Below are positions 43,640-62,091 of a stretch of DNA of 64,000 nucleotides, piece after piece. The DNA comes from an uncultured Verrucomicrobiales bacterium (GTDB lineage: Bacteria; Verrucomicrobiota; Verrucomicrobiia; Verrucomicrobiales; Akkermansiaceae): the NCBI GenBank assembly GCA_949373085.1, contig CASICJ010000014.1, positions 1 to 64,000 on the forward strand, in the 5' to 3' direction. The notes under the pieces are model-generated. The model was not told the DNA's origin, made no database searches, and was given only the letters and a program-made list of their open reading frames with translations. Numbering within the stretch: position 1 is the stretch's first letter; every line of letters begins with the position of its first letter. The position numbers and the translations under genes are program-made.

Positions 43640-44602
43640 CTATTTTTCGGCAGCAACGATGACTCGTAGGCCGTAATTGTAACGGACCGTCGTGGGACTT
43701 GTCCAACTGTTGCGTTGTGCGGACCGGGACACGGTGGGAACGCTGTGAAACGCCCCACTGCGCAGAGATGGCTTGTCGGTTTTCGTGGTATTCTCCGGAT
43801 CAACACTCGGTGACCTGCTGTAAAAGTCCTTGTCATACCAGTCACGGCAGAATTCCCAGACGTTACCGTGCATATCATACAATCCCCAGGGGTTGGGCTT
43901 CAGTTGGCCAACCCGGTGGGCGTAGTCCTCCTTCTGCCCCGCGTTTTTTCCGCCATACCAGCCGTAGTCGATGAGTTTCGAAAGGTCATCTCCAAAGGAA
44001 AAAGCCGTGGTAGTTCCAGCACGACAGGCGTACTCCCATTGCGCCTCGGTCGGGAGCGATACGGTCCTGCCGGTTTTCTTAGAAAGCTTGCGGCAGAACT
44101 CGATCGCATCATAAGAGTCCACAAAGGCAACAGGATAGTCATCGAAGCCTTCTGGTCTCGGCTGCAGACGCATGTATCCCAAGGCCCGCTCTGCCTTCCA
44201 TGGTTCAGTCCCCATCACAGCCTTCCACTGAGCCTGCGTTACCTCGTAGATGCCCATGTAGAAGGGCTTGCTGATCGTTACCTCATGGACAGGATACTCA
44301 TCGATCAGGTTCCTCTCGAAGCCCCCGAACTTCTTGACCGTTTCCGCCGGAGTGTGATGGTTGCCCATCATAAACTTACCAGCTGGAATGAGCACGAGCT
44401 TCATCGACACCCCCTTACCAAGGTCCAGCGAGAGCGCCCCCACGATCGCCGTGTCCCCAGACACTTCGTTCGAAGGCTCGCCCTTTCCTATATTCTGCCC
44501 AAACGCAACCGTCACCAAGGCTACCTGCGCAGCGGTTAGAAGGATTGCTATGAGCAAGACAGCCGAAAACGGTTTCAAACTTGGAATATATGGGTGAATC
44601 AT
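43640..44602 (-). CDS. Exported SUMF1/FGE-family protein lacking the catalytic cysteines
   Basis: The ATG at 44602 follows AAAGGAACC, a good ribosome site, and gives 320 residues. A signal peptide (ends near VTVAFGQ) and a short linker precede a full SUMF1 domain (about 62-318): KLVLIPAGKFMMGN, ISKPFYMGIYEVTQAQW, LPTEAQWEYACRAG, WGLYDMHGNVWEFCRDWY, NYGLRVIVA. The RGGSFxCxxxxC element of true formylglycine-generating enzymes is replaced by LRSGAFHSVPTVSRS, so sulfatase activation is unlikely. The 3'-side paralogue at 58637 is very similar. The role may be binding or another modification. Confidence 0.85.
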   Translation of the reverse strand: MIHPYIPSLKPFSAVLLIAILLTAAQVALVTVAFGQNIGKGEPSNEVSGDTAIVGALSLDLGKGVSMKLVLIPAGKFMMGNHHTPAETVKKFGGFERNLIDEYPVHEVTISKPFYMGIYEVTQAQWKAVMGTEPWKAERALGYMRLQPRPEGFDDYPVAFVDSYDAIEFCRKLSKKTGRTVSLPTEAQWEYACRAGTTTAFSFGDDLSKLIDYGWYGGKNAGQKEDYAHRVGQLKPNPWGLYDMHGNVWEFCRDWYDKDFYSRSPSVDPENTTKTDKPSLRSGAFHSVPTVSRSAQRNSWTSPTTVRYNYGLRVIVAAEK

Positions 44603-44639
44603 AACTGGTTCCTTTAAAGTGGACGATACGGGACTTAAA

Positions 44640-47186
44640 TTATCGTTTTGTGAATGATTCGTCGGCAACGATACTAACAATCAAATCACGCAACTGATAA
44701 TTGTTATTCTTTGACGCTTTCAAAAGACGATGAATCACTTCAGCGTCTGAATAATTGATCTTTCTCCCCATTGCATATTCCGAAAGCTTTGTGAGCAAGT
44801 TCCTGGCAATTTTATCTTGGTCCTCCAGCATCAGATTTTTTAAGCCTTCAATGCCCACGATAGGGCGCCCGTCTCGGTGAGAAGTGGAAGCATCGACCTT
44901 TGTGGTGGGTTCAAATTTTCTCGAAATCTTCTCGGTCTTCTTCGTTTTTCCTTCAGCGGTGACCTCGATCGTTGTCTTGGTTACAACAAATTTCTGATAA
45001 TTTTCGCGATAACGGCCCAAAACATCAAAATTTTCCATGGCCAAACCAAAGGGGTCCATCTTGCTATGGCAGGAAGCGCATTGCGGATTGTTACGATGTT
45101 CATTGATCGTGTCTTTGATGGTGAAAGTTTCCGTAGGTGCTTTCAGGGCTCCAACTTCAAGACTGGCAGGAAGTTTCAAATCCAAACCATAAACATTTTT
45201 AGCCACCCAGGCACCCCGATAGAACGGATTGGTGAATTCACCATTGGTGTTCATCATCAAAATACCCGCCTGCGTCATCAACCCTCCTCGCCGGGACTCT
45301 TTATCAAGTATGACTTTTCGGAAGACCTCTCCTCGCCGCTTCTTCTCATCGTTCGTTATAAGCTTCGAGTCTTTTTGGTTTACTCTATCTGGCGATTCCG
45401 TTTCTTCAGGAATAGTCACCTTATAGATCTGATTCAAGGGTTGATTGATCACTACAAAATCGGAATCAATGAAATTGAGAAGGCTTAGATTCTCATTCAA
45501 AATCACCTTGAAAAACTCAATACTTTCTTGCCTCATGAAGGACTGAATACCTGCGAATCCTTTAAAGGTATATCTGAGAATCTCAGCTTGGGGATTAACG
45601 ACGTCTATTTTATGAAGTTCGAGCCACTGCTCCGTAAAATCAGTAACAAAACGCTGGGATCTAGGGTCTTTCAGCATCCTTAAGGTTTCCGCAGAACGAA
45701 CGCTTGGATCCCTTAACTTACCTTCGAAAGCCAACTTAATTAAACGGTCGTCGGGCAGTGTATTCCACAAAAAGTAAGACAACCTAGAGGCAATCGCGTA
45801 CTCATCAAGATCAAGAGAATCACCTTCCTCCTTATACAAAAAATTGGGTGAGCAGAGCATTATAGTCAAGGCCGACTGCACGGCATCGAGGACGTTTTCA
45901 TTCGTTTCATATCGCTTCTTTGCGACATCGAAAAATCGCGTCAACTCGCTTTCAGTCACCGGCCGGCGGAAAAGTTTAATGGCCAACTTTCTAATGAATT
46001 GTTGATATTGCTTCTGGGGTTCTTGACCCTTCAGATCTTCATAGTAGGTGTCGTAAAACTCGTTTTTTGGAGGCCAACTTTCATAATAGGGACCGGTCAC
46101 ATCAGCCGAAATGAAGTGCAATAACGCTTTTGGCATTTTGGAGAACGCCTTGTCTGCCGGCCGCGGAGGTATCGGCTTGAGTTTACTGAGATCCTTGGGC
46201 AATGGATAAAAATAATTGTAACTATAAAGAACCGCATTCTGTCCTGGCTCCAAATAGATCCGCACTTTGTCGCTTAATAAAAAATCCTGAGTGCTGAGTG
46301 CTTTTTTGCTGAGTTTAGGATCTATATTAGTTGTGATTCTCAGCCGTTCATTTTCTTTACCTAGGTCAACCTTGAAATATAAATCACGTTCTCTGAGAAA
46401 AGCGCCAGTAACGGTTGGATCAATAAGCGTAAAATGCCCATTGACCTTCACATCATAATAGCCTGGCACTGTGTCACCATATTTTAATCCAAACCCACGG
46501 GAAGCATCATTATAACGATACCCTTCGGTTGTCATACCATCATTAAAAAATTCATAACCCGCAACTCCATCGCTACCTAATCTGCGCCCTAGACCGTTAT
46601 CATAACTATGATTGGTTGTAGAAGGCTCGGGCATACCTCCCACGACCTTCCCTGCTATTTCAGAGGCAACTCGGAAGTAGCTATCCATCGCAAAGGGTGA
46701 CATCACCAGTTTGTCACCCTCATTGTCAAAACCATCCCTCGTGTTATCGACAGGCAAGTGGTTTTTGACTTCTAAGTCCATGAAAAAAGCATCGTTGATC
46801 GTGTTCTCATATTCCACGCGATTCAGACGTGTGAGCACGCCGGGCAACTTTTTTTTGATTGAGAAATACTGTTTGCCCAAAAGTTTCTCAAAGGCTTCCA
46901 ACTCCTTTGTCGAGGGCTGCTTCTTGGCTTTCTTGGGCGGCATTTCCTTTTCTCTCAAAACCGTCAAGAGCTCATTGAGTAGTTCGTGATTGGCCCAATC
47001 TTTGCCGTTAAACGTTTCAAAATTATAATCGCCCTTACTCTTTTCATTGCCATGACAGCTCACACAATAAGAGGTTAAGAAAGCTCTACTTCGGTCGAGC
47101 TCCGCAAGGTGTTTTTCAGCGCCGCCCGAACTAGCACTCCCTAAAGCCCCGACCACCAGAAACACGAGAAGTGAACGGGATCTCAT
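44640..47186 (-). CDS. Exported DUF1592/DUF1588/DUF1585 cytochrome-type protein
   Basis: The ATG at 47186 begins a signal peptide and gives 848 residues. A haem motif CVSCH is at C41/C44/H45. The order then matches planctomycete-type proteins: DUF1587 (GVLTRLNRVEYENTINDAF), a carbohydrate-binding-like part, DUF1592 (ASRLSYFLWNTLPDDRL), DUF1588 (RRGGLMTQAGILMMNTNGE, with NNPQCASCHSKMDPFGLAMENFD) and DUF1585 at the C-terminus (EYAMGRKINYSDAEVIHRLL). The function is unknown, probably a periplasmic redox or glycan-related enzyme. It follows the DUF1552 gene by 94 bp, the usual partner. Confidence 0.87.
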   Translation of the reverse strand: MRSRSLLVFLVVGALGSASSGGAEKHLAELDRSRAFLTSYCVSCHGNEKSKGDYNFETFNGKDWANHELLNELLTVLREKEMPPKKAKKQPSTKELEAFEKLLGKQYFSIKKKLPGVLTRLNRVEYENTINDAFFMDLEVKNHLPVDNTRDGFDNEGDKLVMSPFAMDSYFRVASEIAGKVVGGMPEPSTTNHSYDNGLGRRLGSDGVAGYEFFNDGMTTEGYRYNDASRGFGLKYGDTVPGYYDVKVNGHFTLIDPTVTGAFLRERDLYFKVDLGKENERLRITTNIDPKLSKKALSTQDFLLSDKVRIYLEPGQNAVLYSYNYFYPLPKDLSKLKPIPPRPADKAFSKMPKALLHFISADVTGPYYESWPPKNEFYDTYYEDLKGQEPQKQYQQFIRKLAIKLFRRPVTESELTRFFDVAKKRYETNENVLDAVQSALTIMLCSPNFLYKEEGDSLDLDEYAIASRLSYFLWNTLPDDRLIKLAFEGKLRDPSVRSAETLRMLKDPRSQRFVTDFTEQWLELHKIDVVNPQAEILRYTFKGFAGIQSFMRQESIEFFKVILNENLSLLNFIDSDFVVINQPLNQIYKVTIPEETESPDRVNQKDSKLITNDEKKRRGEVFRKVILDKESRRGGLMTQAGILMMNTNGEFTNPFYRGAWVAKNVYGLDLKLPASLEVGALKAPTETFTIKDTINEHRNNPQCASCHSKMDPFGLAMENFDVLGRYRENYQKFVVTKTTIEVTAEGKTKKTEKISRKFEPTTKVDASTSHRDGRPIVGIEGLKNLMLEDQDKIARNLLTKLSEYAMGRKINYSDAEVIHRLLKASKNNNYQLRDLIVSIVADESFTKR

Positions 47187-47280
47187 GGCGGCAATCTTTT
47201 TGCAGACGGTCGAAAAATGAGAACTTACCTGCAGAGGAATCCTGGAGAATCCCATTACGTCCGTTATTGTTGATCCGATC

Positions 47281-48507
47281 CTACAACTTCGCACTTTCAC
47301 TACTGGTGGCAAAGCTATCAATTTCGAGACCCAGATGCTGCAAGGCTGCGAGGTAGACATTGTTCCGGTTGTCTGTGCCGTTAAATTTAATGTGCTTACC
47401 ATGCTCAAAGCCACCGCCAGCGACAACCACGGGGTTATTCTTCATGCCGTGAGGGCCTTCTTCTTTACTGATACTCAGAGAACTAGTGATCAAACAAACC
47501 GTCTGATCCAGTAATGTGCCACCCACTTTCGTCTTAGTTGATTTGAGTTTTTCCAAGAAACGAGCCGTCTGCATCATGTAGCCTTGGTCAGCCTCGATGT
47601 TTTTTAGTAAGCCCTCTTTGGTAGCGACTTGGTGAGAATCAGTATGATGACCAAGCCAATTCCATTCCGAATACACGTTGGCCACTCGGGTGACGTCAAA
47701 TTTGAATGCCAAAAAGAGCAAATCCAAATATGTTGAACGTTGGTTAAAGTGCGGGCACACCAAGATCTTCTGCGAATAGTCACTAAGGCCATCCGTCTTG
47801 AACTTTACGTTTTCAGGAAATGGCACGTCTACGTGTTTTTGATTCAACCAACGCTCAGATCGTTGGATCGACTTTTCAGACTCACGCAAACTAGAAAAAT
47901 ATTCATCCAATTTTGCGCGGTCTTCCCGAGAAACTTTATTCATCATGCTCTTGGCGTCATCTCTACTGGCATCCAGCATCGATTTTTTGAGCGACAGCAA
48001 TTCGGCCCGTTTCGTTTTGTCGACTTTCCCAAATATGGTTTGGAACAAAATCTGGACATCCGCGATTGGGGAAACGGGCAATCCACCCTTCCAAGAGATG
48101 CCATAGGAATTCCTCTGTTCAACGACCAAATTTCTAATGCGCGTGTCATTGCCAATATGAGAGGCCGCGACCTCGTCAACTGAATCTTTAATCAACTGGG
48201 GATTTGCGTGGTCCGCATATTCCGCGAAAGCATACATCGTGCTTTCGTGATTCCCATAGTTCCTTAAATTCGTGCATAGAGTGAAATCATTCTTTAAGTT
48301 TTCCAGCGGCTTGAAAGTTGAAGAGCTTTGGTAGGCCTTGCCTGTCGACTTTGGAAAATTGTCCGAACACATGCCATTCCCGATGTTCATGCAAAACAGA
48401 CGATTCGCCTTCACGGCATCATGGCCCTTCGGTTCTTGACCAAAGCTTTCCAAAGCAGGCAACATCAAAAAACAACCCGCGGACTTTAACGCATTTCGTC
48501 TATTCAT
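47281..48507 (-). CDS. Exported DUF1552 protein
   Basis: The ATG at 48507 gives 408 residues beginning MNRRNALKSAGCFLMLPAL, a twin-arginine-like signal. DUF1552 features are RLFCMNIGNGM, STFKPLENLKNDFTLCTNLRNYGNHE, the VDEVAASHIGNDTRIRNLVVE segment, FDVTRVANVYSEWNW and HTDSHQ, ending with NNVYLAALQHLGLEIDSF. Such proteins resemble alkaline-phosphatase-type or DUF1501 folds, always paired with DUF1592 cytochromes; the substrate is unknown. It is the upstream gene of the pair. Confidence 0.86.
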   Translation of the reverse strand: MNRRNALKSAGCFLMLPALESFGQEPKGHDAVKANRLFCMNIGNGMCSDNFPKSTGKAYQSSSTFKPLENLKNDFTLCTNLRNYGNHESTMYAFAEYADHANPQLIKDSVDEVAASHIGNDTRIRNLVVEQRNSYGISWKGGLPVSPIADVQILFQTIFGKVDKTKRAELLSLKKSMLDASRDDAKSMMNKVSREDRAKLDEYFSSLRESEKSIQRSERWLNQKHVDVPFPENVKFKTDGLSDYSQKILVCPHFNQRSTYLDLLFLAFKFDVTRVANVYSEWNWLGHHTDSHQVATKEGLLKNIEADQGYMMQTARFLEKLKSTKTKVGGTLLDQTVCLITSSLSISKEEGPHGMKNNPVVVAGGGFEHGKHIKFNGTDNRNNVYLAALQHLGLEIDSFATSSESAKL

Positions 48508-48902
48508 AATGTCATCTTTCGGTTTTTGGATTGAACTCATACCAATTATTACGCCCAAAACCGGGTAATTTAGACATATATTTTGTAAAAAAAGCGCCTT
48601 CAATTGCTGGCGGATCAATCAAGCTGGTCATCAGTCGCACGCACGGTCGCCCATTCAACTTTCTGCAAGGACAGAATCTGGACGCCTAGCGGGACTTCTT
48701 TCATTCCAGGGCATACCGGAAAACCGGCGACTCTCCATGGATGCCAGCAAATACGTTGTAGGCGTTCTATCGTTTTCCCATCCGACATAAATCTGGCCCG
48801 AATCTTGCCGAACTGCACTTTTGGATAGAATGCTTTTTCCGATCCATAACAAGCGGGGCTGGCGCTACAGATCGATCTCCTTGAGCTTTGCGCCCGGGGC
48901 TT
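48508..48902. other. Intergenic region, with an open frame continuing past the metalloprotease stop
   Basis: No recognised gene lies in these 395 bases. On the minus strand the frame of the upstream metalloprotease stays open after its TAG (48903-48905) for about 95 codons, to a stop at 48615-48617, encoding segments such as KVQFGKIRARFMSDG and WHPWRVAGFPV. This could be a remnant of an ancestral longer protein or of another gene, or chance. The promoter for the DUF1552 gene should also be here. Confidence 0.35.
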
Positions 48903-50537
48903 CTAGCGCTGTGATTTGGTCTTGCGTTGCTTTTCCTTCTCAGCGTTCTCAGCTTCAATTCGATGGTAGGCCTCGACAACCGCGGGCGGCCAGCGAAACT
49001 CGGGCGCGTCCGACGGATCGAAACCGCTAAGGTGTGGTTGGTCCAGCCGTTTCGTCACCGGGACATAGACCCATTGATTTTGCCGAAACGTAGTGTCGAG
49101 CAATTTGGCGAATTCCGGACAATGTGTTCTTAAAAGCTTGCGGGTCGTCAGGTGGCACACGATCTCTCCTTTGGGCCCGATCAAGGTGAACGAGTCCGAC
49201 CCTCTACCAGACTTGGGCTTCTTGCGGTCGTTACACTCGAACCATGTCTGAACACCTTCGGCCCAGAACTCCGCGAAGCCACCATCGATCGCGTATCCAC
49301 CGAAACGGCCACTTTGCTTCGCTTGGTCGTATAGCTCCCGAAGTCGCGCGTTGAAGTCCTTGCCAAGGACACCGTGAATCCCGTGGGCGAATTCGTGAAC
49401 GAAGATGTTTTCACCCTTATAAGGATCTCCCTTGAGGTTCAGCAAGTTTTCTTCGGCACAACTGACCGGTCTGGACCCCAAGCCTCGAGCGCGATAGGCC
49501 CACCAAAGCGACATGTTTCGGCAGTCGGGCAGGTCAGTCTGCAATTCACAGTAAGCCATCACAGCCACGAACATCTTTCGCTTTTCACAAAGATCCCTTA
49601 GTAAGTCTGGCCGATTAACGAGCATCTTCTTTACCAGATACCCTGCTTCTCCCAGAGCGTACAAGGAAACTTTCTCTGAACCTGCGACCACAAGGCCATC
49701 GGCCACAATGTGTTGTTTGTAAAACGGATCGAGGGTTTCTCGCAGTGCTTCGGGGCTGTACGGAATCAATATCCTTGCCCAGAACTCGAACCGCTTGGGC
49801 GAGAGTTTTTTCAACTCCGCCAGATGTTTGGGGCCCGCGTCAAGACAGACGGCATACACCATAGCGAATTCTGCGAGATCTTCATGACGCACCGTGTCAC
49901 CATAGTCAGAGACAGAGATCTTATCCGCTTTGATGGCCCCTTCCCACTGATCAAGCACCTCAGGATCTAACTCTCTGGCGACCTGCTCCAGCGTGTGTCC
50001 GGCTTCGTGAGCGATCACCAAGGCATCGGCATGAGGAACCAAATTGATATATCCTTTTCCGCCATGCGCTCTTGCTCCACCGAGATCTGCGTAGATCGCG
50101 ATCCCGTCTTCTCCTTTGTCAGACACAGCCACGCACGCGCTTAAGTAGGGATCAGGAAGCTTCTCAAGGCGCTCGACCAGTTTCTCGAGCTTGGCGCCGG
50201 TCGAATCCTCAATAGTCAGCTTAAACCGATACTCACCGGAGGTCGCGATCCACTGCTTGCCAGCGACGCGACCGTTTCTCATCTGAACGGCCTCGGGCCC
50301 GGACACCACCTCTATTTTTGTCGTGCTGCGCTGCCCGAATTTTTCAAAAATCGGTTTGAAGTGCGTTTTCAACTGACGAAGGTCCAAGCTGAGTTCTTCA
50401 CTCACAGTATCGCCGCCGGGGCTTCCCGCTTGGCCGAACGCGACCGGCACAATAGCCAGCAGCGCAACCATCAGAATGGTTGCCGCCGGCAGAAAAGACG
50501 AAAACGATTTCGGGTGGGGTCGACTTTTAGAAGTCAT
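48903..50537 (-). CDS. Exported protein with two gluzincin (HExxH...E) metalloprotease sites
   Basis: The ATG at 50537 follows AAGGAG and gives 544 residues with a signal peptide (ends near VPVAFGQA). Two zinc-site motifs are present: HEAGH at 177-181 with E219 or E223 (RHEDLAEFAMVYA), and HEFAH at 381-385 with E423 or E427 (GGFAEFWAEGVQTW). The second domain resembles anthrax-lethal-factor-like metallopeptidases; the first is a diverged copy or a different family. The N-terminal 50 residues match those of the SUMF1 fusion at 58637, in protein and DNA, although the rest is unrelated. A 28-bp shared motif lies upstream at 50580-50607. Substrate unknown. Confidence 0.75.
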   Translation of the reverse strand: MTSKSRPHPKSFSSFLPAATILMVALLAIVPVAFGQAGSPGGDTVSEELSLDLRQLKTHFKPIFEKFGQRSTTKIEVVSGPEAVQMRNGRVAGKQWIATSGEYRFKLTIEDSTGAKLEKLVERLEKLPDPYLSACVAVSDKGEDGIAIYADLGGARAHGGKGYINLVPHADALVIAHEAGHTLEQVARELDPEVLDQWEGAIKADKISVSDYGDTVRHEDLAEFAMVYAVCLDAGPKHLAELKKLSPKRFEFWARILIPYSPEALRETLDPFYKQHIVADGLVVAGSEKVSLYALGEAGYLVKKMLVNRPDLLRDLCEKRKMFVAVMAYCELQTDLPDCRNMSLWWAYRARGLGSRPVSCAEENLLNLKGDPYKGENIFVHEFAHGIHGVLGKDFNARLRELYDQAKQSGRFGGYAIDGGFAEFWAEGVQTWFECNDRKKPKSGRGSDSFTLIGPKGEIVCHLTTRKLLRTHCPEFAKLLDTTFRQNQWVYVPVTKRLDQPHLSGFDPSDAPEFRWPPAVVEAYHRIEAENAEKEKQRKTKSQR

Positions 50538-50947
50538 GGCAGTGCTCCTTTGCATTGGACGTTCATTCATCGCTACTACCATTCCCGCCAATACAGAATC
50601 TGGACAGGTTATTTTGACCTTATTTGCGATTGAAAAAAACCAAAAGTTGAAAAACATCCTCATAACAAATGCGTCTATTTCAAGACCACGCAGGCGTGGA
50701 AGCGTGAGGCATTTCCAACGACCACGCCAACTTGAGTTTTCGCCAGTGACTACTTAACTGGTGTAGACACTCCGCTGGGCATCGCCAAGGTATAAGGACC
50801 CGCCTGACGCGCTTACGACGGAAACCGGCAGCACTCCCTAGATTACCAGCATCAGAATTGCTAGGAATTTACTTTTGAGAAGTCGTGGTTGGATGGGTAG
50901 CAGAGGGATAGAATGGTGGTTCGCTCGTGGGGGTCAATGCACCAACA
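50538..50947. other. Intergenic region holding a shared 28-bp motif
   Basis: These 410 bases lie upstream of the double metalloprotease gene. They hold the motif at 50580-50607 and an AATAAGGTCAAAA block beside it (minus strand). The remaining part towards the PepSY gene shows no open frame that looks real. Confidence 0.5.
50580..50607 (-). promoter_or_regulatory. Shared 28-bp upstream motif, copy A
   Basis: On the minus strand the sequence reads CTGTCCAGATTCT, eight variable bases, then GGGAATG-type ending. The end of the motif is 42 bases before the ATG of the double metalloprotease. It matches copies at 58681-58708 and 59154-59181 with the same length and spacing between the two conserved blocks, which suggests a promoter or operator. 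Which protein binds it is unknown. Confidence 0.6.
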
Positions 50948-51454
50948 TCAGCGAGCTCGCTTGCGCCGGGAAAGATGTGGCAGGAGAAAGAGGTTGAGAC
51001 CAGTGAGCACCAAGGTGGCGAGCACAATGCCAGCGGGCAGGAAGACCCAAAGCTTGAAATGTTCGTTGAAGTAGGACCCGTCATGAATGCTCTCGATCAG
51101 ATCAGAACGACGGAAGGCCACGTGCAGAATCTCGGCCGTCTCGGTGTCGATCTGGACCTCATAGCGGTTCTTGCAACGCACTTTAACCAGGCCCTTGCTG
51201 GGCCTTACGTCTAGCCGGTCAACATCTTCCCAAGACTCAATCTCTGCCTCGGGGACGGTCCTCACTACCTCGAGAATGCGGTCAAATCCGATTGTGGGTT
51301 CTGTCCCAGTACCGAGCTGGGTCGGCGGCTGGATGTAGGCTGATTCCTTCTTCAATTGCAGGACAATGCCGGAGAAGACGATGATCGTGATCGGAAGCAG
51401 GGCGATGATGGATCCCCACCGATGCAACAGGCGACTTAGCTTGGAGAGCTTCAT
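50948..51454 (-). CDS. PepSY-type membrane protein
   Basis: The product has 168 residues: an N-terminal transmembrane helix (about 11-34, WGSIIALLPITIIVFSGIVLQL), an extracytoplasmic PepSY-like domain (about 50-120, with VEIDTETAEIL-like VQIDTETAEILHVAF) and a C-terminal helix (about 137-158) with a basic tail. The MKLSKLSRLLHRWGS start resembles PepSY-associated TM proteins linked to iron uptake or redox. It starts eight bases after the VPS10/BNR gene stop, so they are probably co-transcribed. Function not known. Confidence 0.75.
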   Translation of the reverse strand: MKLSKLSRLLHRWGSIIALLPITIIVFSGIVLQLKKESAYIQPPTQLGTGTEPTIGFDRILEVVRTVPEAEIESWEDVDRLDVRPSKGLVKVRCKNRYEVQIDTETAEILHVAFRRSDLIESIHDGSYFNEHFKLWVFLPAGIVLATLVLTGLNLFLLPHLSRRKRAR

Positions 51455-51462
51455 GCTGAGGG

Positions 51463-53730
51463 CTACTTGGCCACCTCCTGCTTGATCTTCAGAATCTCCT
51501 TCGCATGGAGAACAAAAACGCTTCGGCCATGAGTCCCTGCGACAAGATCGCCGGTCCCCGCATGGAGTGCCAGATCATGCACCGGGCAGGTCGGCAGCGT
51601 CTTGCAGAGCGAGTGCCAGGTCTGCCCCTTATCAATGGAACAATAGGCACCCAACTCGGTCCCGACATACAGGGTATCCTGATCGTTCGGGTCTTCGCGT
51701 ATCACGTTGATTGATTCCGAGGGCATGTTGTTGACTATTGACTTCCACGTCTCCCCGAAGTCGGTCGACATATATAAATAGGCCTCAAAATCATCTTCAC
51801 GGTATCCCGTCAGTGAAACAAATGCGGTCCCCTCATCATACTTAGATGCGACGACACGACTGACCCATCTGTTCGATAAGCCATTATTAATCTTTGTCCA
51901 AGTAGCCCCGTCGTCCCTCGTCACATGCAGTTGCCCGTCATCCGTTCCAGCATAGAGCAGGCCCTTCTTCAGTGCGGATTCGGAGATGTCGGTGATGGTT
52001 CCGAAGGGAACGTCTCCCTGCCTGTCCGGGCCCGGATTGGTTGACAGGTCGGGGCTGATGCGTTTCCAGTTGTCGCCCCTGTTCTCGCTCCTGAATACGT
52101 AGTTGGCACCAGCGTAAAGCGTCTTGGAGTCATAACGCGACAGGATGAAGGGAGTCATCCAGTTGAATCGCAGTTTACTCCCCTCCGGCGCTGGGCCGGG
52201 CCGGATGCCACGACTCTTACCTGTCTTTAGATCTTTTCGCCCCATCGAGCCAAACATGCCCTCAAGATACATCGTATCCAGATCGTTCGGGTCGATCAGG
52301 GTCACGTAGTTGTCGCCACCGTGGTCCCACTCCCAGTGCTCCTCGCCAAGGACCATCGGCTTAGCCTCACCACCAAGTATGCCGTTATCCTGAGTGCCGC
52401 CCCAGATCTTGTAGGGCTCACGTGCGTCGACTGAGATAGCGTAAAACTCGGCGATCGGCAGCGTGTTGACATGGAGCCACGTCTTAGCCCGATCGTGCGA
52501 GATATAGAGTCCGCCATCGGTAGCCAGCATGAGTCGATCGGTATCGTCGGGATCGATGAACATATCGTGATTGTCACAATGGGGAGTGGCGCGCCGGGCT
52601 TTGTAGGAAAGCATGGGAACGGTGCGCTCGGAGATGATGCTCTGGGTCTTCCCTGCGTCGGGTGAATAGAGAAGGTTGAAACCCACGATGAAGATCTCGT
52701 CTTCGTTGTCCGGCATGACCCTGATGAGGCAGAAATCATATCCGATCCCGGTCTTCACATTGCCCTCATGGGTTTTGCGCCAGCTCTCGCCCTTGTCATC
52801 GGAGCGGTAGACTTCGCCACCCACCCCGCGGTGGTCGCAAATGAGGTAAAGAACATTCGGATTGGAGGGCGCGATGGTGATGCCCATTCTGCCAACCTTC
52901 TCACCGGTGGGAAGCCCCTTGGTCAAAAGCTTCCAGGTCTCGCCCGCGTCGGTCGACTTGTAGAGTCCGCTGCCGGGACCGGCGACGACATTATTCCAAG
53001 CCTTCCTGTCGCGCTCCCAAGCAACGGCATACAGGGTCTTGCTGTCGGACGGATCCATGGCGACTTCCACCACTCCGACCTTCTCGGAGATATAGAGGAT
53101 CTTCTTCCATGTCTTGCCACCGTCGGTGGTCTTAAAAACGCCGCGCTGCTTGTTGTAAGTGTACTGGTGGCCGAGGGCAGCGACATACACGACGTCATCA
53201 TTCTCAGGGTCGATGATGACGCGGCCGATGTGGTGCGTGTCATTGAGCCCCATATTCTGCCATGCGCCCCCCGCGTCGGTCGACTTGAAGACGCCCGTCC
53301 CGGCAATTGAACTGCGTGCCATGTGCGGCTCGCCAGTGCCGACCCAGACCAGGCTCGGATCCTTGTCGGATACCGTGACGACCGAGATAGAGGAAGTCGA
53401 CTCGCTCTCAAAGATCGGCGTCCAAGTCGTACCATTATTGACGGACTTCCACAGATTGCCGGAACCGGAGCCGACATAGAGGGTCGACTTGCGCTTTTTG
53501 ACCGACCAAATACTCTCGATCTTCCCGCCCTGAATTCTGGGGCCAACAGCCGTCCACTCAACATCTTTGAATATCGACGATTCTCTCAATCTCACGTGGT
53601 CATCCCAGGACTTCATGCGCACTCCGGCCGGCGTGGCCGGCCCCGCCTCCACTTCAGCCGAAAGACAGAGTGGCGCGATCATTGAAACTATGAATAGGTA
53701 GATACTGAAGATGCAGGTTCTATTGATCAT
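51463..53730 (-). CDS. Exported VPS10/sortilin-like BNR-repeat beta-propeller protein
   Basis: The ATG at 53730 gives 755 residues with a signal peptide (FSIYLFIVSMIAPLCLSAE). Many Asp-box repeats are visible: SVNNGTTWTP, STDAGGAWQ, TTDGGKTWKK, STDAGETWK, SDDKGESWRK, SRDDGATWTK-like, STDFGETWK and SIDKGQTWHS. They form the ten-bladed type seen in VPS10 and in exo-acting GH74-like proteins. Phrases such as GTGEPHMARSS and LALHAGTGDLVAGTHGRSVFV are typical of the bacterial 'sortilin-like' group. Enzyme activity is doubtful; a binding role is likely. It is followed by the PepSY gene. Confidence 0.82.
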   Translation of the reverse strand: MINRTCIFSIYLFIVSMIAPLCLSAEVEAGPATPAGVRMKSWDDHVRLRESSIFKDVEWTAVGPRIQGGKIESIWSVKKRKSTLYVGSGSGNLWKSVNNGTTWTPIFESESTSSISVVTVSDKDPSLVWVGTGEPHMARSSIAGTGVFKSTDAGGAWQNMGLNDTHHIGRVIIDPENDDVVYVAALGHQYTYNKQRGVFKTTDGGKTWKKILYISEKVGVVEVAMDPSDSKTLYAVAWERDRKAWNNVVAGPGSGLYKSTDAGETWKLLTKGLPTGEKVGRMGITIAPSNPNVLYLICDHRGVGGEVYRSDDKGESWRKTHEGNVKTGIGYDFCLIRVMPDNEDEIFIVGFNLLYSPDAGKTQSIISERTVPMLSYKARRATPHCDNHDMFIDPDDTDRLMLATDGGLYISHDRAKTWLHVNTLPIAEFYAISVDAREPYKIWGGTQDNGILGGEAKPMVLGEEHWEWDHGGDNYVTLIDPNDLDTMYLEGMFGSMGRKDLKTGKSRGIRPGPAPEGSKLRFNWMTPFILSRYDSKTLYAGANYVFRSENRGDNWKRISPDLSTNPGPDRQGDVPFGTITDISESALKKGLLYAGTDDGQLHVTRDDGATWTKINNGLSNRWVSRVVASKYDEGTAFVSLTGYREDDFEAYLYMSTDFGETWKSIVNNMPSESINVIREDPNDQDTLYVGTELGAYCSIDKGQTWHSLCKTLPTCPVHDLALHAGTGDLVAGTHGRSVFVLHAKEILKIKQEVAK

Positions 53731-53894
53731 GAAGCTGAAGGCATACTGACGGTCTAGTAAGGGGTAGGCAATTGAGTTAATGATCAATATTTCAGGAGAA
53801 ATTGATCTACTTTTTAGCTGTGTGGATAGACTTCATTTTCTTCGAGCTGATTAATTTACCGCTCGCGCATGTCGGTGGAAGGTTTCCCTAGCCG

Positions 53895-56285
53895 TTACGG
53901 CTCCCATCGCGGTTCAACACCCAGCAGGTTACGGACGAAGTAATCCTTTTGACGGCGTCTCCCGTAGGCGGATCCAGCAGCACCGTGACCGGCGCCGGGG
54001 ATGATCAGCATATCGAAATCTCGGTCGGCTTTGACCAAAGCGTTGACGACCTGCATGGTCGAGGCTGGATCAACGTTGCGGTCCAACTCGCCCACAATCA
54101 GCAGCAGCTTTCCCTGGAGCTTATGAGCATGGGTCACGTTAGAACTTTCGGCGTATTCCGGTCCTATGGGCCAGCCCATCCAGGCTTCGTTCCACCAAAT
54201 TTTATCCATACGATTGTCGTGGCAACCGCAATCTGAAACAGCCACCTTATAAAAATCTCCGTGATTGAGCAGGGCTCCGGTCGAACTTTGTCCGCCGGCC
54301 GAACCGCCGAAAATCCCGACGCGGCTGAGGTCCATGTAGGGGTATTTCTTAGCAGCCTCTTTGATCCATAGAATACGATCCGGGAAACCGGCGTCGCCGA
54401 CGTTCTTCCAGCACACATCGTGAAAGGCCTTGCTGCGGTGCGACGTACCCATACCATCGATCTGGACCAGAATAAATCCCAACTCGGCCCATCGCTGAGC
54501 ACCGTGACAGGGTGAAAAGTTTTTCGGCACGAAGGAACCGTGGGGCCCCGCGTAAATCTTTTCAATGACCGGATACTTCTTCTTCGGATCGAAATTCGAG
54601 GGACGAAAAATCACCCCATAGATATCGGTCTTACCGTCGCGACCCTTGGCTACGAAATGCTCAGGCCTTTGCCAGACGGTGGCCTCGAGTTCGCTGGCGT
54701 CAGACTCTTCCAGTTGGCAAACCAACGAGCCGTCGCTGACTCGGCGTAACTCGTTCACCGGCGGCATGTCCACGCGGGAATACGTGTCGACGATAAACTC
54801 ACGGTCCGGCGAGTATTCGATCGAGTGCGTGCCGTCGCCGGCGGTCAATTTCACCAGGCCTGTTCCATCGAAGTTGATGCGACAGTAATGGATGTAATAA
54901 GGATCCTGCTCGGGATAAATCCCCCCGGCTTGGAACCAGATCTGACGCTTGGCGGTGTCTACTCGGTCGATTTTCCGCACGATCCACGGCCCCTTGGTGA
55001 TCTGGTTCTTCAGCTTACCGCTGCCGAAATCGAATAAGTACAAATGGTTCCACCCGTCGCGTTCCGACATCCAGATCATCTCGTTGGAGGACTCCAACAA
55101 TTGGCGATGATTATAGAAGGCATAATTGACGAAAGTCTTGCTCGTGTCGTCAATCAGAGCGGTGACTTGTCCGCTCTCTGCATCGATGGCCACGATCCTC
55201 ACCGCGCCGTGTCCTCGTTGGTTATAGTAGAACGTGAATCTGCTAGAATCCTTCTCCCAGCGATGCGAACCGATGCTCCATGGGTTGGCGAAAAGCGTCT
55301 CGTCGAGTGGGACCTCCTTCTTCCCGACGATGTCAAACAGATGCGGCTTGGTCTGGGCAATCTGGTCGCCCGGTTTGAGGTAACTGTTCGAATGCAACTT
55401 CGGTTGCAACTGGTCCTTGGGCGAGGACTCGACAAAATGGACGATGTGCTCTTGAGCCTTCTTATGACGGAAACCAATCAGTTTCCTCCGGTCGGGGGAC
55501 CATTGGAAATTGCCTTGATAAGCATCGCCTTCCTTACCGTCTGTTGTCAGGGCGATTTCCTTGCCGTCCCCGCCGAAACGAAGCCAGACATTGTGGTCCT
55601 TGATGAAGGCCTCGACCTTCTTTGCGGCGTCCTTCTTTTCCTCGGGCGATTGAGGGAACCGCAGTTCGGGGGCGGCCGGTTTCTCGTGCGGAAAAGGTGC
55701 TTCGGCCCCAGGTTGCGGGGATTGCGAGAAGAGCAGCGTCGAGGCCTCCTGTTGCGGAGCGGGGATTCCTCTGATCACCGACACCTTCTTGGCCCCGGGC
55801 TTGTCTTCGGTGAGGGACTGATCCTTAAGATTGATTTTCCACGATTTGCCCACCGCCTTGAAATACACAGCCTCTCCCGGCAATCCCTTCTCATCGCCGT
55901 CCGTTTTCTTATATTCGATCTCGTTGAAGGGCAATTTATGAGCATCGAAGGCCTTGCCGGTTGCTTTCGCGAGATCCTTTGCCAACCGCTCGTGGTCGAA
56001 AGCTGCTTTTCGTTTACCCATGGCCGCATCGACAAAAACGAAATTCTTCCGGCCTTGGCCCAGATCATTGCGATACCAGAAGCACTTGGTGCCAGTCAGC
56101 CAATGCGCTTGCACCTTCGTCCGAAACACCTTGCCGCCGGTGATGCCGCCGATCTTGTCGAAACGTTCGTAGTCCGCCTTGGTTCCTTGGGCCTGAAGCA
56201 TCGTGGCCGTTGACATCAGAACCAACGCCACGGCGGCGGCGATCCAGGAGTTCATCGTAGGGAGACTAGATATTGATATTTTCAT
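53895..56285 (-). CDS. Exported S9 family serine peptidase (DPP IV-like)
   Basis: The product has 796 residues, starting at ATG 56285 (an internal ATG at 56255 is possible), with a signal peptide. An N-terminal beta-propeller (about 210-540, WSPDRRKLIGFR, MIWMSERDGWNHLYLFD) precedes the alpha/beta hydrolase domain. The catalytic triad is visible as S662 in FGGSAGGQS, D735 in VGELDRNVD and H767 in GAGHG. Such enzymes cut dipeptides from peptide N-termini, often after Pro, which would fit with use of proline- and hydroxyproline-rich protein. It lies 54 bp after the SUMF1-GH32 fusion. Confidence 0.87.
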   Translation of the reverse strand: MKISISSLPTMNSWIAAAVALVLMSTATMLQAQGTKADYERFDKIGGITGGKVFRTKVQAHWLTGTKCFWYRNDLGQGRKNFVFVDAAMGKRKAAFDHERLAKDLAKATGKAFDAHKLPFNEIEYKKTDGDEKGLPGEAVYFKAVGKSWKINLKDQSLTEDKPGAKKVSVIRGIPAPQQEASTLLFSQSPQPGAEAPFPHEKPAAPELRFPQSPEEKKDAAKKVEAFIKDHNVWLRFGGDGKEIALTTDGKEGDAYQGNFQWSPDRRKLIGFRHKKAQEHIVHFVESSPKDQLQPKLHSNSYLKPGDQIAQTKPHLFDIVGKKEVPLDETLFANPWSIGSHRWEKDSSRFTFYYNQRGHGAVRIVAIDAESGQVTALIDDTSKTFVNYAFYNHRQLLESSNEMIWMSERDGWNHLYLFDFGSGKLKNQITKGPWIVRKIDRVDTAKRQIWFQAGGIYPEQDPYYIHYCRINFDGTGLVKLTAGDGTHSIEYSPDREFIVDTYSRVDMPPVNELRRVSDGSLVCQLEESDASELEATVWQRPEHFVAKGRDGKTDIYGVIFRPSNFDPKKKYPVIEKIYAGPHGSFVPKNFSPCHGAQRWAELGFILVQIDGMGTSHRSKAFHDVCWKNVGDAGFPDRILWIKEAAKKYPYMDLSRVGIFGGSAGGQSSTGALLNHGDFYKVAVSDCGCHDNRMDKIWWNEAWMGWPIGPEYAESSNVTHAHKLQGKLLLIVGELDRNVDPASTMQVVNALVKADRDFDMLIIPGAGHGAAGSAYGRRRQKDYFVRNLLGVEPRWEP

Positions 56286-56339
56286 TCTTTGTTTCTTTCG
56301 ATTGCTCGCTTGTTCAACTTCGAAATTCCGGTCTTTAAT

Positions 56340-58637
56340 CTAATTCCAAGCTTTCAGTGTGTCGATGGTTTCCTCGGCGTTGATCAATCCGATTCGGCCG
56401 GTAGCATTAGCTGGCAGTGCGAAGCTTTCAATCAGGATATCGTCAAGATAGAATTCCATTAACGACCCTTTGACAAGTAAGCGAAATGTGGCCGGGCTCC
56501 CGAACGTCATCTCCCGGTCGACGGGCTTCTCCGCTTTGAAGCCTGTCCCGTCCACTTTCATCGGGCCCAACTCAGCCACCCCGGTGCTGTCGATCAACAC
56601 GCCGACTCCTAAATCATTTGTGCATTCAATGTAGACCCCGCAGCGTGGCGATTCTTTTGCCTTCGGCAGCTTCAGGGTTCCTTCAATAATGATCCCCTGT
56701 TTCGTGTCAAAGGAATTGCCGAGTAAGGCGACAGGTGCCTTGGGATCAACCGGCTTTTTAACGGCGATTGACTGGTGTTTCATCTTCTCGTTTTCTTTCC
56801 ACCACCCGAAGCGTAGCGTTCCCTCGTGATCGATACGCACGTCCTTTATTGGAGCGAATGAGACCTCTACGTCTCTAGCCTGGGTGAAATGACAGGCAAG
56901 CAGACCCTCGGGGTGACGGAAGAAGCGAGAGAAGTAAGTATGCCCTGTTAGAACCTTGTAATTCTTCTTTGCCTTGCGAAAGGGGCCTTCGGGTCGATCT
57001 GCAACAAGTGTCGTCATAGCGGGATAGTGGCCGAACAACATGTAGTACTTGCCCCCTATCTTCTCCACCGCGCCGACCTCTCCACTGTTCTCATCATCGA
57101 TAACTCTGGGAGGCGCAAGTGCTTTCCAGTGCACACCGTCGAGCGACTCGCCGAAGCCAAATATTCCCTCAGCGGCGTCCTTCTTTGAGCGGTCCGGACT
57201 TGCGGTCCAGTAGCCGTAGAGTCCGCCACCTGGCTTGGGAATAGTCCAAATGCAGTCCCAGCGTCCCTTCTTCTCGTACCATTGTTCGTTCTGTACGAAC
57301 CGGTATTCATCCCCTTTTAAGCGGGTCCAGTGAAGGAGGTCCGTGGATTCGGCAAAGTAGATGTTCTGACGCCCGTCCTGATCTCCTCGGAGAAATTCAT
57401 ATAGAATTTGCCGTCCTTATCGAAGGCAGGTGACTTCCAGGTCGAACCCGTGCCCATCCACTTGGCTCCCGGAGTTTTTTTTAGGATCGGCCCCCTTTCA
57501 GTCCAGTGTACGCCATCACGCGACGTGGCCATGGAAATATTGTCCCAGCGCCAGCGGTGTTCGCCGACATTTGCGAGGTAGTACAGGAAGTATGTTCCTG
57601 CATGATGGTAGAGCCAAACATCCCACATGTTTCCGGTTTCCTGATGTTGTGCTTTGTAGAACATGGATTGCACAATCTTGTCTGAAACCGGTCGATTGGT
57701 GTCGCCGTCTGACTTCTCCTGCGCGTCGGCAGTAACGACGACCCGCATACCGTAGTTGTAGCGGACCTGCTTGGGACCTACCCACCTGGCGCGTTGTGAG
57801 GAGCGGGACACGGCGGGAACGCTGTGAAACGACCCGCTACGCAGACAGCGCAGATCGGTTTCCGTGGTATTCTCCGGATCAACACTCGGTGACCTGCTGT
57901 AGAAGTCCTTGTCATACCAGTCACTACAGAATTCCCAGACGTTACCGTGCATGTCATACAAGCCCCAGGCGTTGGGCTTCCTCTGGCCGACCCGGTGGGC
58001 GTAGTCTTCCTTTTGCCCCGCGCCTAACCCTCCATACCAGCCGTAGTCGATGAGTTTCGACAGGTCACCTCCGAAGGAAAAGGTCGTGGTCGTTCCCGCG
58101 CGGCAGGCATACTCCCATTGCGCTTCGGTCGGCAGGGAGACGCTCATGCCGGTCTTCTTCGAGAGCTTGCGGCAGAACTCGATGGCATCATAAGAGCTCA
58201 TCCAGACCGCGGGATAGTCGTCAAAGCCTTCTGGTCTCGGCTGCGCACCCGCGATACGCCAGAGCCGACTTTGTCAGCCATGGTTCCGTGCCCATCACGG
58301 CCTTCCACTGGGCCTGCGTCAGCTCGTAGATCCCCATGTAGAAGGGCTTGCTGATCGTCACCTCATGGGCAGGATACTCATCTGACACGTGCTCCTCCTC
58401 GCCCCCGACCTTCTTGATCGTTTCCGCCGGGGTGTCGTGGTTGCCCATCTTGAACTTGCCGGCTGGAATGTGCACGAGCTTCATCGAGACACCCTTACCA
58501 AGGTCCAGGCTGAGTTCTTTGCTCAAGGTATCGCCCCCAGAGTTTCCCGCTTGGCCGAACGCTACCGGCACAAAAGCCACCAGCGCAACCGTCAGGATGG
58601 CTGCATTCAGGGAGAGGGAAAGAGTTCGAATTCTCAT
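56340..58637 (-). CDS. SUMF1 domain fused to a GH32-like glycosidase domain, two compensating frameshifts
   Basis: One gene is split over three frames. Part 1 has a signal peptide and the first SUMF1 half (to KSALAYR, then GAQPRPEGFDDYP in the next frame, near 58250). Part 2 holds the SUMF1 rest (LPTEAQWEYACRAG, HGNVWEFCSDWY, NYGMRVVVTA) and runs without a stop into a five-bladed propeller (ATSRDGVHWTERGP, STWKSPAFDKDGKFYMNFS). Part 3 (from RQNIYFAESTDLLHWTR, near 57370) completes it, ending in a GH32-like beta-sandwich (FRLLVKGSLMEFYLDDILI). One inserted and one lost base restore 765 residues. The catalytic SUMF1 cysteines are absent (RSGSFHS). The paralogue at 44602 stops where the fusion begins. 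Confidence 0.72.
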
Positions 58638-58679
58638 AGTATGTTTCTTTGTGTTGGGAGATAGTAGTCTACCTAATTA

Positions 58680-59144
58680 TCATTCCCACTGGCAGAAAAT
58701 CTGGACAGATTTTTTGACCTTATTAGCTATTAAAATTCCCGTTGCGAACATTTCCGCCGATGAAGATCGTAGGCAGATCTCCAGGTGTTGCCGACGAATC
58801 TGCTGATCCTCCTCTCCACTGGCCTCTTCCGCCAGCTGATCCCAAACCTCGTCGACAAAGACCAGCGGGCTTCGAGCCACTCGACGTCGATATTTCAAGG
58901 CCTCAAACCGAGCGATCGTGAGCAACCAACCACCAAACGACGTGCCCTCTTCAAAATCATCGAATTTGCGCCACGCAATCAGGCTCGCTTCCTGGGCGAC
59001 CTCTTCGACATCATGCCATGTCGGCAACAATCCGCGCAGAAACGAACGGACACGCGGCTCGTGCTTCATCACAAGGCGTACAAAAACTTCGTATCGTTCG
59101 TCGTCGTTCACTGGGATTCGTTTTTCGGCAGATTGATCATCCAA
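58680..59144 (-). CDS. ECF sigma factor, truncated, lacking region 4
   Basis: The product has 154 residues. Region 2 is intact: YEVFVRLVMKHEPRVRSFLRGLL, DVEEVAQEASLIAWRKFDDF and FGGWLLTIARFEALKYRRR, the form common in Planctomycetes and Verrucomicrobia. After HLEICLRSSSAE the sequence loses resemblance and ends IANKVKKSVQIFCQWE, so the helix-turn-helix of region 4 that reads the -35 box is missing. The last codons overlap a copy of the 28-bp motif. It could be a decayed gene, or a region-2-only protein. A further motif copy precedes its own ATG by ten bases. Confidence 0.75.
   Translation of the reverse strand: MDDQSAEKRIPVNDDERYEVFVRLVMKHEPRVRSFLRGLLPTWHDVEEVAQEASLIAWRKFDDFEEGTSFGGWLLTIARFEALKYRRRVARSPLVFVDEVWDQLAEEASGEEDQQIRRQHLEICLRSSSAEMFATGILIANKVKKSVQIFCQWE
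58681..58708 (-). promoter_or_regulatory. Shared 28-bp upstream motif, copy B
   Basis: The minus-strand sequence is CTGTCCAGATTTT, eight bases, then GGGAATG. It lies inside the last codons of the sigma factor gene and 44 bases before the ATG of the SUMF1-GH32 fusion. Immediately upstream is AATAAGGTCAAAA, which also flanks copy A. Spacing from ATG is nearly the same as for copy A. Confidence 0.6.
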
Positions 59145-59153
59145 AACAAAAGA

Positions 59154-59181
59154 ATACTCCCTTAAGTAGAGAATCTGGACA
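59154..59181 (-). promoter_or_regulatory. Shared 28-bp upstream motif, copy C
   Basis: The minus-strand sequence is CTGTCCAGATTCT, eight bases, then GGGAGTA. It ends ten bases before the ATG of the truncated sigma factor gene. With copies A and B this suggests that the sigma gene and two target genes are controlled by one factor, as in autoregulated ECF systems. The closeness to the ATG would imply a very short leader. Confidence 0.55.
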
Positions 59182-59670
59182 GAAAAACTTTTCCTCGTAT
59201 TCTAATATCTCGCGGCCGCTTCCTTCGACACAATCACTCACAACTGTAGAACTACCCCCCCCTTTTTACAAATGCCGCTGCAGGAACATCCCCGATCCTA
59301 ATCCCCTGTAAAAAATCACAAGTAGCAGTTAATAATAATACAATTGAACGAGAGTGAATCGAATCACTTTAGCAGGGGGGCGGCCTGATTTGTCTTTCCG
59401 AACCGGTAGGCCCTACTTTCCAAAATTACTAGAGATACTGCGTCTCATACACGATGGCATGCCCGAACCAACGAAGGGAAAATCCAAGTCTTCGACCAGC
59501 AAGGGTATTTCTTTAAAACGATCGAGGTTGAGTCGGCTAATAACGGACTTGTTGTCACTTTAAGATTAGTTTGCAATTATCTCTCAAAACTAACCACCAA
59601 TCAGATTTGAGTATTGATTATCCTGAATTCTTCATCATATTCTCAAGTTGGTAAAATAATTTATAAATTC

Positions 59671-61783: not shown

Positions 61784-62091
61784 GTGAGTTTGAGAAGAAC
61801 AGCATTGTTTTGAAGCTAAGAACGGCTCGCAAGAGAATGAAGGCAGAGTTGGGCCGCTGTGAGGGGCGCAAACCCTATGGTGATAGAGAGGGAGAAGCAG
61901 AAGTAATCGCCTTAATGAAAAGCCTCAGGCGCAAACGTCCAAATCAGAAGAGAATGAGCTACGATAGAATAGCTAAGACTCTCCAAGAAAGGGACATCAA
62001 GACCCGCTCTGGCTCCTCTGAGTGGAGGAGTAATACCATCAGGAGGATTTTAAGCAGATACGTCTCCAACTCACTGAGAACTAAATCCTAA
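61729..62091 (+). pseudogene. Serine recombinase, C-terminal remnant
   Basis: About 120 residues remain. PTAKMVRQILGAVSEFEKN is the start of the long E helix of resolvase/invertase-type serine recombinases, followed by IVLKLRTARKRMKAELGRCEGRKPYG and a DNA-binding part (MSYDRIAKTLQERDIKTRSG, NTIRRILSRY). The N-terminal catalytic domain with the active-site serine is absent, as the frame is cut by the 53-bp repeat and the esterase gene. It cannot be active. The cut lies exactly at the repeat. Confidence 0.82.

Follow-up and report, generated by a model that had tools for sequence, protein, structure and literature searches.

Most of the many ECF sigma factors of Planctomycetes and Verrucomicrobia have, to our knowledge, no known targets. 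Rhodopirellula baltica alone is credited with 37 such factors in passages of PMC2754498. The window analysed here, a whole stretch of 64,000 nucleotides from an uncultured Verrucomicrobiales bacterium, raises the question of targets directly: an initial annotation noted that one 28-bp motif recurs upstream of an ECF sigma gene and of two genes for secreted proteins, and proposed that it marks the small regulon of an autoregulated sigma factor. What is the motif, which genes does it mark, and what has become of the sigma gene? As argued below from sequence comparison, the motif is likely, and we hold this with good confidence, to be a -35/-10 promoter read by an ECF sigma factor that belongs to the TIGR02989 (Rhodopirellula/Verrucomicrobium) subfamily.

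Motif sites in the window

The motif occurs on the minus strand at the following positions:

50580..50607, minus strand: site 1, promoter-like motif, profile score 40.9, 42 bp from the ATG at 50537
58681..58708, minus strand: site 2, promoter-like motif, profile score 44.6, 43 bp from the ATG of the SUMF1-GH43 gene
59155..59182, minus strand: site 3, promoter-like motif, profile score 37.0, 10 bp before the sigma start (TTG)
48550..48576, minus strand: site 4 (new), diverged promoter-like motif TGTCTAAATTACCCGGTTTTGGGCGTA, score 20.1, 42 bp from the ATG at 48507

Sites 1-3 had been recognised in the initial annotation, and all three are real and far beyond chance; sites 1 and 2 lie exactly where they had been placed, and the third lies at 59155-59182, one base from the 59154-59181 given for it. 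The distance of ten bp between the third site and the sigma gene was confirmed, but the start codon there is likely TTG, the nearby ATG being out of frame, and the 42-44 bp claimed between the other two sites and their ATG codons measure 42 and 43 bp. With uniform bases, the 28-bp pattern is expected about 1e-6 times in the window, and the best profile score on the reversed window was about 6. The 11-mer CTGTCCAGATT has three exact copies in the window and, with one mismatch, six matches against 1.14 expected, a number reached in 0 of 100 shuffles.

Scanning the bacterium's own genome (3.41 Mb, 72 contigs) with the 28-bp pattern, as the annotation had proposed, returned sites 1-3 as the sole exact matches to TGTCCAGATTN{8,12}GGGARTR and none in the reversed control; the spacer had the same length in all three, though 8-12 bases were allowed. 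A search of the same genome with the consensus and three mismatches recovered sites 1 and 3 only. Site 4, which lies upstream of a DUF1552 gene, was found by a profile trained on other genomes, and a similar promoter variant stands before DUF1552-like genes at four loci in other genomes (L108, L116, L120, and L127; Pfam assignments for L108 and L120). On the plus strand, 48794-48862 holds an apparent decayed promoter copy (score 0.7) that resembles the GATAGAATGCC-TGTCCAGATCC..AAGCGGGAGTG type of L113 and L121. The length of the motif, said always to be 28 bp, is constant in the window but not beyond it: the spacer is one base shorter at three promoters in relatives, namely the DUF4159 promoter of an Akkermansiaceae MAG (L040), the first of a duplicated pair in a verrucomicrobial MAG (L110), and the L110 sigma promoter.

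The fuller locus in relatives

The arrangement from which the window appears to derive is seen in L040, where the order is site, sigma gene (184 aa), gene for a FecR-domain protein, second site, DUF4159 gene, and the beginning of an ORF resembling the MoxR ATPase of L110. Immediately ahead of the sigma site is the C-terminal portion of a gene that resembles, by eye, the PSCyt1/DUF1587-1592-1588-1585 gene of the window. The same sigma-fecR-DUF4159 order is found in L107 (a Rubripirellula MAG) and in L109 and L110 (verrucomicrobial MAGs), with identities to L040 of 76-82% for sigma, 61-74% for FecR, and 73-86% for DUF4159. The FecR-domain gene directly follows the sigma gene in all four loci (51.8 bits in L040, 56.1 bits in L107). 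L110 continues into MoxR, DUF58, and BatA genes and L109 into ORFs similar to these (by listing, not by profile scan), and the L107 contig ends within the DUF4159 gene. Three intact sigma orthologues score 160.5 (L040), 154.7, and 156.1 bits against TIGR02989 over positions 1-158, above the curated cut-off of 124.55.

On the proposed model, the sigma factor would drive its own operon, sigma-fecR followed by the DUF4159-MoxR-DUF58-BatA genes, along with scattered genes that mostly encode exported proteins, and FecR would hold the sigma factor until an envelope signal arrives. Such restraint is what is expected of the FecR family.

Several copies of the locus are incomplete. The sigma gene of G445 has a stop in its extreme N-terminus followed by an open ORF of 174 aa, and those of G006 and G444 break off at a contig end or close to one. 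In L115 (positions 1-320; G006), the sigma match extends only to residue 92 and ends 56 bp short of the end of the contig, and in L109 (4406-7574) the fecR and DUF4159 genes are each split over two ORFs; decay or sequence error may account for either. Among the three members of the genus with the sigma gene, only the G004 copy is seen whole, because the G006 copy stops early and the window copy is truncated. Contig breaks lie inside or just before the sigma gene or promoter in L111, L115, L130, L135, and L148, which suggests strain variation or repeats.

Proposed promoter architecture

The profile used for scoring was built from 33 non-redundant sites of 51, all outside the bacterium's own genome and with near-duplicates removed. 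Its consensus reads AAAAT at about -7 to -3, TGTCCAGATT, 9 bp, and CGGGAGTGAT, with columns that are invariant partly by construction, the sites having been picked by a mismatch limit. The sigma factor's own promoter would accordingly be written TGTCCAGATT-N8/9-CGGGAGTG, that is, a preceding A-rich stretch, the first block, a spacer of 8-9 bp, and the second block. Alignment of the upstream regions of relatives, another check proposed at the outset, placed a site before all seven sigma orthologues and before the gene that follows fecR; the L110 sigma site lies 47 bp away and has an 8-bp spacer, and the L109 sigma site has three mismatches. The same motif thus stands before the sigma gene and before candidate target genes, as in an autoregulated ECF regulon.

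A related element was found before more distant sigma genes. In a set of paralogues from which sigmas more than 70% identical, upstream regions shorter than 150 nt, and exact duplicates were left out, AGATT-N8..11-CGGNAGT occurs with at most one mismatch in 10 of 35 upstream regions (null mean 0.195 and maximum 3 in 200 rounds); these regions had already been viewed when the pattern was formed. Of the ten, four are near-identical sequences of a single genus and one is located beyond the inferred start, and a close match is missing in the other 25 regions. The diverged element reads AGATT-N9/10-CGGNAGT, and it may be the strongest indirect sign that the block is made up of a -35 and a -10 element. 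The other sigma gene of the bacterium's own genome that exceeds the TIGR02989 cut-off (C53) shares 37-38% identity and has a different upstream element.

The apparently decayed sigma-fecR locus

The genes that surround the sites in the window are as follows:

58771..59144, minus strand: ECF sigma gene (TIGR02989-type), truncated, its homology to intact orthologues stopping after ~125 of 184 codons
58723..58772, minus strand: fecR 3'-end relic, reading ..PTIFIGGNVRNGNFNS-stop, with the remainder of fecR and the sigma C-terminus (present in L040) missing
56340..58637, minus strand: gene for a secreted SUMF1-GH43 fusion protein, split over three ORFs by frameshifts
48903..50537, minus strand: probable exported protein with two HExxH motifs (HEAGH, HEFAH)
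47281..48507, minus strand: DUF1552 (HXXSHH) protein with an RR start, downstream of site 4
44640..47426, minus strand: PSCyt1/DUF1587-1592-1588-1585 protein, downstream of DUF1552

The window sigma gene lacks its C-terminal third and scores 109.8 bits against positions 3-109 of the 158 of TIGR02989; because this is under the cut-off and covers only part of the profile, it is best regarded as a truncated relative and not as a full member. ECF region 2 was detected by Pfam in the window sigma and in the three orthologues. Pfam region-4 models matched none of them, even the intact orthologues, in which region 4 is presumably present, to judge from their full-length match to TIGR02989.

Of the fecR gene, only the last ~50 bp remain, which leaves the FecI/FecR-like pair of the window incomplete. 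FecR ends in PTAAIIIGGSLRNGDFNRK in L040, and the relic reads PTIFIGGNVRNGNFNS-stop in frame, so the TAA within AATAAGGTCAAAA at site 2 is the fecR stop region. The AATAAGGTCAAAA that the initial annotation had noted just upstream of two sites is largely the 3' end of fecR and not a control element in its own right, and a shorter stretch like a fecR tail (..FFNRK-stop) precedes site 1. The two sides of the join at 58771 match separate parts of one L040 operon and, judged on L040, have ~4 bp (GCCT) in common, which fits a microhomology deletion, although the truncation could be an assembly join.

The SUMF1-GH43 gene is frameshifted relative to the copy in G023, which has frame breaks of its own, one of them near the signal peptide. 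Its second domain, described earlier as GH32, is GH43-like (8.9e-6; the window copy falls below the Pfam cut-off). A second SUMF1 copy (43647-44615) is 84% identical over 783 bp to the site-2 gene and has a leader-like stretch upstream, with no motif there among the profile's top matches in the window. An integrase-like fragment (by eye) lies near the G023 copy (L015, 2252-2821). The double-HExxH protein has no match in PDB or Pfam; its motifs are ~200 residues apart, possibly the mark of a duplicated metallopeptidase domain. An ARAGORN call of tRNA-Val at 55177-55268, within a DPP IV ORF, is probably false.

Taken with the fuller locus in L040, the window looks like a decayed branch of the regulon, in which a deletion would have removed the sigma-fecR pair and left targets behind, one of them already a pseudogene. 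The idea of an autoregulated sigma factor sharing its motif with its targets is upheld by the seven orthologues of seven, by co-occurrence of motif and sigma gene, and by the paralogue element, but not by the window copy itself, in which sigma is truncated and fecR gone.

Candidate targets

Within three mismatches, 60 sites were found in 53 loci, five of which were set aside by eye as chance-like (L112, L123 at 2943, L150, L152, and L158), leaving 55. An ORF of at least 150 aa, or one running off the contig, starts within 200 bp after 48 of these; the seven sites without one include site 2 of the window, where the ORF is cut by the frameshift. Seven of the 48 ORFs are sigma genes. Among the other 41, a signal-peptide-like start was assigned to 33 by a simple rule and RR starts to four more by eye. 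The enrichment for exported proteins is moderate, because 138 of 260 background ORFs in the same loci pass a similar rule, and orthologous target sites are not independent of one another.

Pfam families among the targets include SUMF1, GH43, GH31, DUF1552, PSCyt/PSD, ThuA-DUF7133, SASA, BNR, DUF6055, DUF4159, and alpha/beta hydrolases; the candidate targets scanned showed no iron transport gene. One candidate is clearly cytoplasmic, a glutamate synthase gene preceded by the motif in L113 (position 6990; G004). The small regulon for exported proteins suggested by the initial annotation is supported in part, the genes being mostly for exported proteins, but the candidate regulon is wider than three genes.

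The position of the sites bears on whether the motif is a promoter or instead a dispersed repeat, the edge of a mobile element, or a recombination site, in which case its place before genes would reflect insertion. Copies share flanks (fecR tail and leader) across unrelated genes, as would be expected of a repeat, several lie near contig ends, and in L110 the fecR tail, promoter, and leader start are duplicated in tandem. In the window, a recombinase fragment (Pfam Recombinase) lies near the locus at 61729-62091, and site 2 overlaps a short inverted repeat (11 nt, 91%). Site 1 and the L040 sigma site, however, have no inverted repeat around them, and the inverted repeat near the second L040 site falls outside the motif. 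Motif-bearing genomes have only 1-7 sites each, 48 of the 55 sites read towards the start of an ORF, the blocks have promoter-like spacing, an analogous two-block element stands at the starts of some diverged sigma paralogues, and no Rfam family matches the window between 43000 and 64000. On this evidence a repeat or mobile-element origin appears unlikely, and the promoter reading is kept in what follows.

Distribution of the motif and the sigma gene

The exact motif is present in four of 58 relatives (G000, G004, G006, and G023), all of one genus. A sigma gene of at least 87% identity is found in three of the 58, all three among these four carriers, and the next best sigma reaches 51%. None of 387 genomes sampled across the phylum has the exact consensus, so the motif is rare and patchy and not a general promoter of Verrucomicrobiota. 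A looser form, TGTCCARATTN10GGGARTG with at most two mismatches, matched 44 of the 58 relatives, but its reversed control also matched in many and the search was uninformative.

A scan of a one-genome-per-species collection returned 36 stretches, against ~15 expected by chance with uniform bases. By their titles, 21 of these come from genera that we take to belong to Planctomycetota or Verrucomicrobiota; among the other 15 (one from Victivallales), only that of a Halieaceae MAG (L022) is promoter-like. These 21 and the Halieaceae stretch read TGTCCAGATT..GGGAGT(G/A), and 18 of the 22 are followed within 200 bp by a sigma ORF or an exported-looking ORF (one by eye). In 19 genomes chosen for carrying the motif, 57 sites were found with at most two mismatches, against 0 in the reversed control.

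Seven of the 19 have a sigma gene of at least 76% identity. It was not found in the other 12, four of which (G023, G438, G447, and G448) have no sigma match at E<=1e-20. Incompleteness of the MAGs, contig breaks at sigma (L111, L130), or loss could explain the missing genes, and the pairing of motif and sigma is weakened to that extent. These four genomes are also what might be expected if the operon happened to be controlled by some other regulator, with the motif as its operator, or by a different sigma factor, with the motif as its promoter. A site upstream of every one of the seven sigma orthologues and related elements before some sigma paralogues argue against this, and we consider it highly improbable.

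Shared segments after the promoter

Sites before unrelated genes have more in common than the two blocks. The bases after the promoter recur among them (GATGAATGATCATCCAACGCAAAGGAACC), unrelated target genes sharing the promoter and the next ~40 nt, and a signal peptide (..ILTVALLAFVPVAFGQ) is common to several targets. When 22 hand-picked sites were compared, the 50 nt that follow proved similar (p up to 0.0034) in 26 of the 217 pairs whose targets bear different names, against 0.7 expected; a control on the 50 nt upstream gave 7 of 200 pairs, itself above the expected 0.7. Some of the pairs with similar downstream bases also share the leader. In L117, the promoter of a GH31 gene is followed by what look like the remains of a sigma start, and a similar arrangement is suggested by eye in L124 and L145. 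The tandem duplication in L110 (5220-5550; 164 bp, 88%) looks as if the promoter-leader unit duplicates in place.

In the window, the leaders of the double-HExxH gene and the SUMF1-GH43 gene are 85% identical at the DNA level over 111 bp. Since the two genes carry copies of one segment spanning leader and signal peptide, sites 1 and 2 owe part of their resemblance to common descent, and both follow a stretch like the fecR tail. It might be supposed that they are alike only because a segment with the upstream region and signal peptide was recently duplicated, and that the likeness means nothing for regulation. Against this, the blocks persist before genes without leader homology and in genomes of two phyla while the bases between them vary, the block columns being partly fixed by the choice of sites, and the third site, before the sigma gene, has neither fecR tail nor leader. 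Duplication as the whole explanation is accordingly very unlikely.

For the promoter reading, these segments suggest that the regulon grew by copying. Genes would have joined it when the promoter and the bases that follow it, sometimes with the fecR tail and a signal peptide, were copied before them, although constraint on the bases after the promoter, and not copying, could explain what is shared there.

Probable spread between phyla

Closely related sigma operons are patchy in both Planctomycetota and Verrucomicrobiota. The seven sigma orthologues from these two phyla form one clade (100/100) with short branches, within which a planctomycete pair (83/85) and an Akkermansiaceae trio (91/89) group separately, and the operon DNA of L107 is 79-81% identical to that of L040. 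In 392 genomes sampled around G444 in its phylum, the sigma gene was found in one, G444 itself (E<=1e-50; at most eight candidates scored per genome). For a gene 4 kb from the L107 sigma copy, relatives were found in 25 of 59 further genomes from the family of L107 (best 69%) and in none of 145 Verrucomicrobiota (E<=1e-80), so the L107 contig looks correctly binned and misbinning is unlikely, an argument that applies to G437 and not to G444.

Horizontal transfer is the simplest reading of these data, and the operon has probably moved between Planctomycetota and Verrucomicrobiota. More tentatively, and with rather less than even confidence, the whole may be a transmissible regulon, in which the sigma-FecR unit crosses phyla, recruiting segments are copied before unrelated exported-protein genes, and orphans remain after sigma is lost. 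The recruiting segment, on the same tentative footing, would be the promoter with the region after it, sometimes with the fecR tail, a sigma start, or a signal peptide.

Relation to known systems

The locus resembles FecI/FecR-type pairs of cell-surface signalling in having an ECF sigma gene followed by a FecR-domain (PF04773) gene, with exported-protein genes nearby. It appears to differ from them as follows: no TonB receptor was noticed by eye among the listed ORFs of L040, L107, L109, and L110 (scanned in part with profiles), the candidate targets are DUF4159-MoxR-BatA genes and exported proteins of the PVC group, and one motif precedes both the sigma gene and its candidate targets, which points to autoregulation. 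In passages of PMC8103513, FecI-like systems are named as exceptions to ECF autoregulation, and AAC and CGT are given as the boxes first held to be typical of ECF promoters, which the motif described here does not closely match.

The intact orthologues resemble other TIGR02989 sigmas of Rhodopirellula and Verrucomicrobium in exceeding the cut-off over the whole profile and in the AGATT..CGGNAGT architecture common to some paralogues. Unlike several of these, which have GTT or GTC, this clade has TGTCC ahead of AGATT. No such motif was found in the titles and abstract starts of the ECF literature covered, which excludes the main ECF reclassification paper, or in passages of PMC8103513, PMC2754498, and PMC7406223.

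A further parallel comes from passages of PMC2754498, where the R. baltica ECF factor RB10049 is proposed, with credit to Studholme et al., to control RB10051, a protein with PSD1/PSC2 domains, and where a DUF1552 protein is listed in tables of shared stress responses. Both cases tie an ECF sigma factor of the PVC group to a protein of planctomycete-cytochrome type; those passages give no motif, whereas the motif found here appears to tie several such genes to one sigma factor.

The motif would thereby offer a testable tie between one clade of sigma factors and DUF4159-MoxR-BatA operons, and between the same clade and exported proteins of the DUF1552, PSCyt/PSD, SUMF1, and ThuA types. The AGATT..CGGNAGT architecture may provide a way to look for the promoters of related sigma factors, and promoter-leader copying, if true, would show in concrete terms how regulons can grow and pass from phylum to phylum.
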